A program made the translations under genes and the position numbers. DNA of 37,355 nt from an uncultured Verrucomicrobiota bacterium (GTDB lineage: Bacteria > Verrucomicrobiota > Verrucomicrobiia > Limisphaerales > UBA9464), in assembly GCA_903858835.1 (NCBI GenBank), contig CAIOKD010000062.1, positions 1 to 37,355 on the forward strand. Direction: 5' to 3'. Below, one piece after another: positions 21,960-25,685 of the stretch. The number at the start of each line of letters is the position of its first letter. Within the stretch, counting starts at the first letter, position 1. Below the pieces are notes generated by a model, which was not told the origin of the DNA, did no database searches, and saw only the letters and a program-made list of their open reading frames with translations.

Positions 21960-22097
21960 GAGGCGGGCAGTGAGTCTCGATGGTGCCCGGGAGCGAATGC
22001 AACGAGGGAAACGCCCCTTCGTCCCATCCGGGACATCGGCCCGGGCGACGAATGCGCACTGTCAGCAGGAGTCACTTTCCGAGTTTAAAAAGTACGG

Positions 22098-22125
22098 ATA
22101 CGTATTATCCTTTCGGGAACCGAGG
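22098..22125 (+). promoter_or_regulatory. Candidate -10 box and strong ribosome binding site upstream of the adenylate-forming enzyme
   Basis: TATTAT at 22103-22108 is a good -10 box in a locally AT-rich stretch; no convincing -35 box lies 17 bases upstream. The box overlaps an 8-bp palindrome ATACGTAT (22098-22105), a possible operator. GAGG at 22122-22125 is a clear Shine-Dalgarno site five bases before the ATG and supports the chosen start. The initiation distance is short, so the leader would be about 15-20 bases. Confidence 0.5.
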
Positions 22126-22130
22126 TAACT

Positions 22131-23213
22131 ATGCCCATCCCCACCGTCGCTCCGGAAGCCGTCGCCGCCGCCAAGAGCCAACTCGACCAGCACCTGCTGG
22201 AGATCATCGAATGGCACTTCAATCCCGCCACGGGTTGCCCCTTCTGGCTCGATTGGGCCCGCAAGAACTGGGATCCCCGCAAGGAGATCCGCAGCTTCGA
22301 AGACATGCTCAAGTTCCCGCACTTCCAGGACGAGTCGCTGCGCGACCTTCAGCCCGAGGTCTGGGTGCCGGCCGAGTTCAAGGGCAAGCCTTTCAACATC
22401 TTCGAGACCGGCGGCACCACCGGCATGCCGAAGCAGCGCATCGGTTGGAACGACTACAGGGTCGATTACTCCGAGTTCAGCGACAAAATCGACGACACCC
22501 ACTTCCCGCGCGGGGGTGCGTGGTTGATGATGGGCCCGACCGGCCCCCGCCGCCTGCGTCTGGCGATCGAGCACTTGGCCAACGTCCGGGGCAGCTCCTG
22601 CTACTTCATCGACCTCGACCCGCGCTTCGTGAAGAAGCTCTTGTCGAACAAGCAGTACGATGTGGCCAAGCAGTACATGGCCCACGTGGTCGACCAGGCC
22701 GCCACGATCCTCAAGCACCGCAAGGTCAGCGGCCTGTTCACCACGCCGAAGCTGCTGGAGGCCCTGGCCGAGCAGGTCAACCTCTGGGAGGCGGGCATCC
22801 GCGGCGTGTTCTGCGGCGGCACCTCGATGAAGCCGCAGGAAGTGCGGTTCATCGTCGAGGAATTGCTCGAGGGCCGGATCGGGTTCTACCCCACCTACGG
22901 CAACACCCTGATGGGCCTGGCCGCCAGCGTGCCGCTGCAACCGGAGGACAACTTCAGCGTGACCTACTACTCGCCGCAGCCCCGGGCGGTCCTGCGCGTG
23001 GTGAAGCCCAACGCCACCCAGGAACTGGTGAACTACGGTGAGTTCGGCCGCGTGGAGCTCACCACCCTCACCCGCGAGTTCTTCATGCCACGCTTCCTCG
23101 AGCGCGACGAGGCCATCCGCCGCGCTCCGCGTCCGCCCTACGCCTGGGATGGCGTGGGTGATGTCCGTCCGTTCGGCGCGATGGAGAAGACCATCGTCGA
23201 GGGCGTGTACTGA
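22131..23213 (+). CDS. Adenylate-forming enzyme, PaaK/LuxE-like, without the C-terminal lid domain
   Basis: The protein has 360 residues with ATG at 22131 behind a good GAGG ribosome site. The nucleotide-binding loop of AMP-forming ligases is FETGGTTGMPKQ (91-102). The adenine-binding segment is FYPTYGNTLMG (252-262), and an acid-containing stretch GEFGRVELTTLTREFFMPRF follows at 303-322. It ends soon after, at KTIVEGVY, so the C-terminal domain with the catalytic lysine that PaaK-type ligases use for thioester formation is missing. The length matches LuxE-type acyl-protein synthetases better. It probably activates a carboxylic acid as acyl-AMP; the acid and the acceptor are unknown. It stands alone between a divergent aldolase and a dedicated terminator. 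There is no carrier protein or thiolation domain nearby. Its codon use is strongly GC-ending, suggesting good expression. Confidence 0.82.
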   Translation: MPIPTVAPEAVAAAKSQLDQHLLEIIEWHFNPATGCPFWLDWARKNWDPRKEIRSFEDMLKFPHFQDESLRDLQPEVWVPAEFKGKPFNIFETGGTTGMPKQRIGWNDYRVDYSEFSDKIDDTHFPRGGAWLMMGPTGPRRLRLAIEHLANVRGSSCYFIDLDPRFVKKLLSNKQYDVAKQYMAHVVDQAATILKHRKVSGLFTTPKLLEALAEQVNLWEAGIRGVFCGGTSMKPQEVRFIVEELLEGRIGFYPTYGNTLMGLAASVPLQPEDNFSVTYYSPQPRAVLRVVKPNATQELVNYGEFGRVELTTLTREFFMPRFLERDEAIRRAPRPPYAWDGVGDVRPFGAMEKTIVEGVY

Positions 23214-23248: not shown

Positions 23249-23284
23249 AACGCCGACTCCGTGTCATCCACGGGTCGGCGTTTT
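23249..23284 (+). terminator. Intrinsic terminator of the adenylate-forming enzyme gene
   Basis: AACGCCGACTCCGTG (23249-23263) pairs with CACGGGTCGGCGTT (23269-23282) with a single bulged T, then a run of four T ends at 23284. It is 35 bases after the stop codon. The minus strand has no T-run after the stem, so it acts on the plus strand. Confidence 0.88.
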
Positions 23285-23342: not shown

Positions 23343-25601
23343 CTAGGCCGCCTTGGGCACCGAATTGGTCTCGGGTTTTGCCGGGTCGGCTTTGGTTCCA
23401 GCGTCCTTCTTTGGGAAGTGATAGCGGTGCTTCAACACGTCGGGGAGGTATTCCTCAAGCTTGTCGGCCCTCCATTGCAAGCCGATCAAGCCCGCGACAA
23501 CCAACGCGCCGTACAGTTTCCAAGGCCGCCGGGTTTCCTCGAACGGATCGACCAGGTCGCGGCTTGATCCGGGAGGCAATTCCGCGATGGCCGTCAGCCG
23601 GGTGCCGAAGGGCACGTTGATCCGGGCCTTGGCGTTCACGGCCCAGCCGTTGGCATCCAGGATCGGCCCCAGGTTGCGCTTGCGCAGCTTGATGTAGGTC
23701 ATCACCAGCGACGGTCCCGAGATCAAGGCCATCACGCCGACGATGGCCCCGACCATGGCGAACGCCCCCTGGGCCCATAGATCCTTGCCGAGGGTGGCCA
23801 CCGCGGTGAAGAAGCCGCCGATGGCTCCGAAGGCCACACCCAACGCGGCGACCGTGCCCACATCAACCTTCTGCGGAGCGGCGGCTGCCGCCGGAGTCAC
23901 CGACTTGGTCGCCACCGTAGTAGCCGCGGCCGCGAGCTTCTGGCTGGCGGCGGCATCGGCCTCGGCCGCCCGTTTGGCGATCTGCTCCTCCACCCAGCGG
24001 ACGAACCGCTTGTAGGGTTGCCAGAAGGCCTGTCGGAGGCTGATGGGATTGGCCACGATCTTGGTGATGGTGGCGTCGTAATCGAGCCCCTTGCGGTCGT
24101 AGAACACACCGTTGCGGCCCACCATCAGGTTCTCGTCGTCGCCCTGGGAGAAGATGGCCACCACGGTCAGTTTCTGCCCGGTCGCCTTTCGGAGGCAGTC
24201 CACATAGGCCAAGTAGGCTCCGGCCAGGCTGGCCATCACCGCATGCTTGGCGGGATCCACCACGGTGATGCAGAGGTTGCATGACCGCTGGTCGAGATAG
24301 AGGGTGCCCGCCTGGAAGATCGCCGGCGATCCCCCGTCGTAGAGGTCGCGGAAATTCACGAAATTGGTGGCGAGCACGATCAGGTCCCGATGGAAGCGTA
24401 CGAACTTCTCGACCGAGGCGACGCCGGAGGCCTCCATCTCCAATTCCTTATCGCGGGCGATGAGACCCGTGATCGCCGCCCGGGCATCGCCCCGCAGGAT
24501 CTCCCGCACCCGGGCGATGCCGAGCGACTCGACGCGCATCCCTGCCTTGGCGGTCTGCCAAGCCTCGTACGGGGCCAATCGCGCTTGGACGACCGACCAA
24601 TCCTCTTCGGTGAGCACCTCGCGCGCGCCCAGCAGCGGTTCCACCGTCGCCGAGCGGAAGGTCGCGATGGCCTGGGCATGGGCGGGATTGAGACCCGAAA
24701 CCAACGACAACGGTTGCCCCGGGACGATCCGGGATACGGGAAACCCGGAGACCTCCTGCGCGGAGAGGCTCAGATCCTTGGTCAGGAGACCCTTGTACTC
24801 CTCCTCAGTGCGGTTGAGCAGCGGGGATAATCGGGCCTCGAACGTCGCCAGGCGGCAGCGACCGAAGTAGTCGTCGATCTTGGCCTTCACCGCCTGCATC
24901 GCAGCGGCAGCCGCAGCCGTCGCGGGCCCGGCGGGGAGGATCTTGGCCGCATCGGCTTCGGAGGTGTTCACCCAGGCATCGAACCGGGCCAATTCCGTGA
25001 AGAACTCCTCCACCTTGGCCGCATCGACGCCCGGCTTGCCGCTCCGGTCCATCACCGACCCGACCGCCGCCATGGCCTCGCGGATGACCTGCTGGACGGT
25101 GGTGTCTTCAGCCGATTCAGGGATGATCACCCCGTCACCGTTGAAGACCGTGTTGGCGAAGCTCTTGGACGCGGCGGCGGCATCGTCGACCGTGATGACC
25201 CCGGCCTCAGCCTTGCTCAACTGGCGCAGGATCACCCTGGCCGACCCGAGGATCTGGCGCCCCTCGGGGACTTGGTCGTTGATCGCCGTGAGCGCGACAC
25301 CGTCCCGGCCTTTCACGAGATCATCGGGGTCCCGCAGCATCGACCCCGCCCATCGGATCGCCGCAATCAACTCCTGCGCCCGGATGCGCCCATCTCCATC
25401 GGAGTCGATCAGCGCGGCGGTCTTGGGATCAAACTCGATGCCCGTGGTCGGACAGGCCAGGGCCACCCAGAGTTTCTGGTCCAACTGGTCCAGGTTCATC
25501 AGGTCCGCCCCCGTCTGGAGCTTGACCTGGTCGAAACCTCCGGCACGGAAGAACTGCCAGGTGTGCGGTTTCCGAGGAGCGTTGGTCTGCGGCGATTGCA
25601 T
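23343..25601 (-). CDS. Large EF-hand protein with C-terminal membrane segments, unknown function
   Basis: The protein has 752 residues from ATG 25599-25601. No known family with a defined activity is recognised. A canonical EF-hand loop lies at 66-77 (DSDGDGRIRAQE, with Asp at 1, 3 and 5 and Glu at 12), so it should bind calcium. The next 500 residues are soluble and partly helical, with an Ala-rich region and the segment RSCNLCITVVDPAKHAVMAS followed by FSQGDDENLMVGRNGVFYDR. An Ala/Thr/Lys-rich linker leads to two hydrophobic segments (VAALGVAFGAIGGFFTAVA and FAMVGAIVGVMALISGPSLV) and a third near the end (LYGALVVAGLIGLQW). No N-terminal signal peptide is seen, so the EF-hand part is probably cytoplasmic. 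It is a single gene between a plus-strand terminator and the Rsm22-like cluster. Confidence 0.82.
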   Translation of the reverse strand: MQSPQTNAPRKPHTWQFFRAGGFDQVKLQTGADLMNLDQLDQKLWVALACPTTGIEFDPKTAALIDSDGDGRIRAQELIAAIRWAGSMLRDPDDLVKGRDGVALTAINDQVPEGRQILGSARVILRQLSKAEAGVITVDDAAAASKSFANTVFNGDGVIIPESAEDTTVQQVIREAMAAVGSVMDRSGKPGVDAAKVEEFFTELARFDAWVNTSEADAAKILPAGPATAAAAAAMQAVKAKIDDYFGRCRLATFEARLSPLLNRTEEEYKGLLTKDLSLSAQEVSGFPVSRIVPGQPLSLVSGLNPAHAQAIATFRSATVEPLLGAREVLTEEDWSVVQARLAPYEAWQTAKAGMRVESLGIARVREILRGDARAAITGLIARDKELEMEASGVASVEKFVRFHRDLIVLATNFVNFRDLYDGGSPAIFQAGTLYLDQRSCNLCITVVDPAKHAVMASLAGAYLAYVDCLRKATGQKLTVVAIFSQGDDENLMVGRNGVFYDRKGLDYDATITKIVANPISLRQAFWQPYKRFVRWVEEQIAKRAAEADAAASQKLAAAATTVATKSVTPAAAAAPQKVDVGTVAALGVAFGAIGGFFTAVATLGKDLWAQGAFAMVGAIVGVMALISGPSLVMTYIKLRKRNLGPILDANGWAVNAKARINVPFGTRLTAIAELPPGSSRDLVDPFEETRRPWKLYGALVVAGLIGLQWRADKLEEYLPDVLKHRYHFPKKDAGTKADPAKPETNSVPKAA

Positions 25602-25685
25602 GGCGGGCGACAGCGTTGGCGATAAACAATAGCAGCGGAGCCGGGGCGATGCCACCCAGCGTATCGGTGGATCCCGGGCGGAGCT

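Follow-up and report, generated by a model that had tools for sequence, protein, structure and literature searches.

The window analyzed here, a stretch of 37,355 nucleotides from an uncultured Verrucomicrobiota bacterium, encodes an adenylation core that ends before any C-terminal domain. This raises the questions of whether the protein is complete, to which family it belongs, and what receives the acyl group that it may activate. Features of the gene, and of related genes on other contigs (C numbers) of the same genome, are listed in Table 1.

Table 1. Features of the adenylation core gene and of its putative partners in the same genome. Positions refer to the window unless a contig is given.
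Feature	Position	Strand	Basis or remark
EhpF-type lid-less adenylation core, 360 aa, monocistronic in own genome	22131..23213	+	ORF, homology, selection
ATP/phosphate loop ETGGTTGMPKQ, residues 92-102, motif A3	22404..22436	+	alignment
YPTYGNT, residues 253-259, A5-type motif	22887..22907	+	alignment
ERDEAIR, residues 324-330, family signature	23100..23120	+	alignment
C-terminal EGVY, natural family end	23199..23210	+	alignment
Operator-like palindrome GTACGGATACGTAT (GTACG-GATA-CGTAT), -39 from ATG	22092..22105		sequence, conservation
Upstream block TTTCCGAGTTTAAAAAGTACGGATACGTATTATCC, probable promoter/operator region	22076..22110	+	conservation in genus
GAGG, probable ribosome-binding site	22122..22125	+	sequence read by eye
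Terminator-like hairpin, 9+5 bp stem, then TTTT	23249..23282	+	folding
Partner ALDH	C128:16042-17475		78% identity to query ALDH
ALDH operator copy	C128:16002-16015		-40 of ALDH gene
MarR ortholog	C142:18213-18668		73% identity
Fe-ADH ortholog	C177:2862-4076		61% identity

Both motifs noted in an earlier, sequence-only reading of this DNA, ETGGTTGMPK (residues 92-101) and YPTYGNT, were invariant in an alignment of 30 verrucomicrobial relatives (30/30), as was the ERD of the ERDEAIR signature. The ETGGTTGMPKQ loop aligned with ESGGTTGAPK of EhpF, and ERDEAIR aligned with RTRD (motif A7, containing the ribose-binding Asp) of PaaK-like ligases. The Glu that usually comes after the A5-type motif was missing behind YPTYGNT, as it is in EhpF. 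Hinge and lid (A8-A10) were absent after EGVY. No lid domain was found in any frame between the stop codon of the core and the convergent gene at 23343, and a lid with the catalytic Lys was absent from both the core gene and its relatives. Full-length relatives, including distant ones across phyla, stopped at the same C-terminus, usually -EGVY and also -EGLY. Comparison with 10 relatives gave dN/dS values of 0.04-0.14, and GC content at codon positions 1, 2 and 3 was 0.62, 0.42 and 0.92; the gene is therefore under strong purifying selection, in agreement with the earlier view that it is not decayed. Judged by its sequence, the core is an intact, naturally lid-less adenylation enzyme that probably adenylates a carboxylic acid.

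The length of the protein had previously been taken to fit acyl-protein synthetases of the LuxE type, and this assignment did not hold. Among solved structures, core residues 18-360 matched EhpF by phmmer (PDB 3hgu/3l2k; E 1e-40, 31% identity). When an AlphaFold model of the core was used as a Foldseek query, the top five matches were EhpF chains, with PaaK ligases next; the PaaK-like adenylating enzymes NatL2 and ClxA were also among the structural matches. The model was of modest confidence (pLDDT 64), too weak for reading the acyl pocket. The LuxE profile PF04443 gave no match in the core, whose sole Pfam match was AMP-binding PF00501, below the cut-off. LuxE membership was therefore rejected in favor of the proper relative, EhpF, which matched over the full length. 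The names F390 synthetase and PaaK-like were likewise rejected, their matches being partial and far below the cut-offs. By homology, the core is an EhpF-type lid-less ANL adenylating enzyme. In its title, the paper on the EhpF structure (Bera et al. 2010, cited in PMC3175449) terms EhpF an atypical ANL enzyme. Elsewhere in the genome, contig C47 carries adjacent LuxE-like (PF04443) and LuxC-like genes (L122:3592-6346); another AMP-ligase gene lies close to them.

Lid-less adenylating enzymes of the EhpF type are known from antibiotic clusters. The sequence-only reading considered delivery of an acyl-AMP to an acceptor and placed that acceptor outside the neighborhood, which proved true only locally. 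The genes flanking the core in the window, a DHDPS-like gene upstream and one for a 770-residue protein downstream (23343-25655, minus strand), were rejected as partners because they lie beside the core only in its closest relatives; the 770-residue protein had no Pfam match. The proposed search for conserved neighbors in other genomes found an ALDH as recurrent partner and settled the acceptor question. An ALDH gene came immediately after the EhpF-like gene in Pantoea, S. goshikiensis, Burkholderia, the haloarchaeon Halalkalicoccus and an E. coli plasmid, and at another Streptomyces locus an ALDH gene lay near the EhpF-like gene. An adenylase/ALDH gene pair is named ehpF/ehpG in Proteus (PMC11278526). 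On a plasmid of Streptomyces sp. NBC_00316, an EhpF-like gene annotated as arylcarboxylate reductase immediately preceded a type I polyketide synthase gene. No ALDH was in view beside the EhpF-like gene at this locus (L126), and its neighbor suggests another acceptor in that EhpF-like branch.

Deep Verrucomicrobiota relatives showed the gene order MarR (divergent), two propellers, SSS symporter, core, ALDH and Fe-dependent alcohol dehydrogenase (Fe-ADH), and the core and ALDH genes were adjacent in several of these genomes. The cultured Chthoniobacter flavus Ellin428 carries the genes together in a single cluster (L076). In Chthoniobacterales the symporter is replaced by an MFS protein, the best NCBIfam match of which was the aromatic acid/H+ symport family, below the cut-off. 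PQQ-like propeller genes occurred in 56 of 81 verrucomicrobial core loci; in most relatives the core is accompanied by two such beta-propellers, which have apparent signal peptides (e.g., L038:6019-9959). Across 195 genomes of the phylum, strong matches to the core and to the ALDH were found in the same five (Fisher 4.5e-10, uncorrected for shared ancestry). Among 59 close genomes, 49 had both genes and 5 had neither, and the 5 discordant genomes were all drafts from the window's genus.

Residues of the partner ALDHs were compared by aligning 12 of them, from Verrucomicrobiota and from EhpG-type loci; P0001 was also aligned with KauB. All 12 retained the catalytic Cys and the cofactor-binding Glu399, and in all of them the general-base (hydrolytic) Glu was replaced by H, Q, R, L or Y. 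An acyl-cysteine can thus form and should be poorly hydrolyzed, as would suit an enzyme that reduces an acyl group taken over from acyl-AMP. Verrucomicrobial and EhpG-type ALDHs were 22-32% identical, not far from the level between ALDHs in general and too low to mark the partner as an EhpG ortholog in particular.

In the window's genus the operon is scattered and the core stands alone; orthologs of the ALDH, MarR and Fe-ADH genes are still in the genome. The sequence-only reading had credited the core gene with its own promoter, a good ribosome site, a palindrome and a terminator. The ribosome site was found by eye and the palindrome GTACGGATACGTAT was conserved in the genus, within an upstream block whose flanks were not conserved; in a related genus the palindrome varied with compensating changes. 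The promoter was not borne out, as no sigma-70 consensus was found for the core gene. The terminator was confirmed in part: the hairpin is stable (-24.1 kcal/mol, z -6.5) and kept in the closest relatives (L083, L085), but its tail has only four T and a terminator pattern scanner did not call it.

The palindrome corresponds to the pattern RTACG-N4-CGTAY, which had five sites in the 3.0-Mb assembly, one at -39 of the core gene and one at -40 of the ALDH gene. As a reversed control pattern also had five sites, frequency alone shows no excess and the evidence for an operator is its placement. For stand-alone cores the sites fell between -34 and -41, and for 23 ALDH entries between -31 and -51; 16 operon-type loci had a site upstream of their first propeller gene. 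The chance rate was about 3e-4 per 330-bp upstream window; the counts include some loci entered twice and relatives that are not independent. At L038 the MarR and propeller genes diverge and the site falls between them, making MarR the natural candidate binder, and a MarR-family repressor probably binds the operator. In the window's genus no operator was found near the MarR genes, even when one mismatch was allowed, and none was found in Fe-ADH upstream regions, including that of the genome's own Fe-ADH gene.

Of the remaining sites in the assembly, one on contig C9 overlaps the start codon of a gene for a tryptophan-halogenase-like FAD protein (L209:2293-3588), which may be a third regulon member. 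The sites at C3:6953 and C286:1492 had no convincing target gene. Contig C31 holds a second EhpF-like core fragment (L121:3258-3821), cut by the contig end and preceded by two propeller genes. This fragment was 63% identical to the window copy and 80% identical to that of a distant genome (G219), and no operator was found on C31. We did not use it as evidence; the contig is probably contaminating or foreign, with horizontal transfer also possible.

Operon conservation elsewhere, exact co-occurrence in the phylum sample and the shared operator together make the ALDH on contig C128 the candidate acceptor. Another protein probably receives the acyl group, as had been suggested. We infer from homology that the core would bind ATP together with a carboxylic acid and form an acyl-AMP; the acid is probably an aryl or another cyclic one. 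The acyl group would then pass to the catalytic Cys of this dedicated ALDH, where the thioester would be reduced by NAD(P)H to an aldehyde, and the Fe-ADH may carry the aldehyde to the alcohol. The genes form one operon in many Verrucomicrobiota and, in the window's genus, would make up a scattered regulon joined by the RTACG-N4-CGTAY operator. We consider it likely that the core is the adenylating half of a two-component carboxylate reductase, like EhpF/EhpG and GriC/GriD, under MarR-type control.

A broader reading is put forward more tentatively, at somewhat less than an even chance. The exported beta-propellers, acid transporter, lid-less adenylase, hydrolysis-blocked ALDH and Fe-ADH may together constitute a MarR-controlled, non-phenazine carboxylate reductase regulon of Verrucomicrobiota that acts on an environmental acid by a route not described before. 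The enzyme type is already known, and it is the conserved non-phenazine regulon in Verrucomicrobiota that appears to be new. A literature search found no description of a verrucomicrobial carboxylic acid reductase; one may exist elsewhere. GriC/GriD is reported as a carboxylic acid reductase with 3-amino-4-hydroxybenzoate as substrate (PMC10179220).

Other fates of the acyl-AMP were weighed against transfer to the ALDH. The core might pass it to a carrier protein, a polyketide synthase or an amine, yielding a thioester or amide and no aldehyde; the polyketide synthase beside one Streptomyces EhpF-like gene and the structural matches to PaaK-like NatL2 and ClxA are consistent with such a role. 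We regard it as unlikely, since neither a carrier protein nor a synthase was found repeatedly beside verrucomicrobial cores, whereas the ALDH does recur and is tied to the core by the operator. The same enzymes could also run in the oxidative direction, with the Fe-ADH converting an alcohol to an aldehyde and the ALDH forming the acyl-enzyme, from which acyl-AMP would be made, the acid released and ATP regained. Uptake transporters together with an alcohol dehydrogenase are found in many catabolic operons, and an ALDH that lacks the hydrolytic Glu needs another acyl acceptor. However, making ATP from AMP and PPi is unfavorable in cells with pyrophosphatase, and both the homologous EhpF/EhpG and the analogous GriC/GriD have been assigned to acid reduction; we give this direction slightly less weight still.

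Equally improbable is that the core is part of a two-domain CoA ligase with its lid supplied by a separate protein, or that it is a relict that only binds nucleotide. Weak, partial matches to coenzyme F390 synthetase and PaaK-like ligases point that way, but the frames between the core stop codon and the convergent gene hold no lid, the EGVY family end is uniform across phyla, and purifying selection on the core is strong. Least credible of all is a LuxE-type acyl-protein synthetase, despite the similar length and the similar logic of an activating enzyme with a reductase. PF04443 gave no match, EhpF matched over the full length, and the genome has its own LuxE-like and LuxC-like genes elsewhere, adjacent to each other; a mechanistic analogy remains.

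The core places a strongly conserved lid-less adenylase of the EhpF type in common freshwater and soil Verrucomicrobiota, beyond antibiotic clusters. Sequence alone tied an orphan adenylation core to a partner enzyme and to transporters, with an operator and a candidate for the regulator, and so turned it into a testable enzyme pair. Such a pair could yield compact carboxylate reductases that work without a carrier protein. The case also shows how partners in function can be traced through a common operator once an operon has been scattered.

The closest known system is EhpF of Pantoea (Enterobacter) agglomerans (PDB 3hgu, 3hgv, 3l2k), an enzyme of D-alanylgriseoluteic acid biosynthesis. Bera and co-workers reportedly described EhpF as lacking a C-terminal domain, and are said to have proposed that EhpF and EhpG reduce phenazine-1,6-dicarboxylate to the aldehyde via an adenylate. 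Core and EhpF share full-length homology, the missing lid, the motifs and the C-terminus. They differ in that the core, at 31% identity, lies outside any phenazine cluster, is widely conserved in free-living Verrucomicrobiota and may have a completely different substrate. Moreover, the EhpF gene adjoins its ALDH gene (EhpG), whereas the window core is separated from its ALDH and shares an operator with it.

The LuxE/LuxC fatty acid reductase resembles the proposed pair in that an activating enzyme passes the acyl group to a reductase, but LuxE belongs to another family (PF04443), and this genome has separate LuxE-like and LuxC-like genes on C47. The PaaK and coenzyme F390 synthetase family has the same N-terminal fold and gave the second-best structural matches; unlike the core, its members have a C-terminal lid, and the F390 match was far below the cut-off. 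GriC/GriD of Streptomyces griseus (grixazone) follows a similar two-protein logic, with an adenylating enzyme and a reductase converting an aryl acid to an aldehyde, although in another pathway and taxon; this likeness is one of logic.
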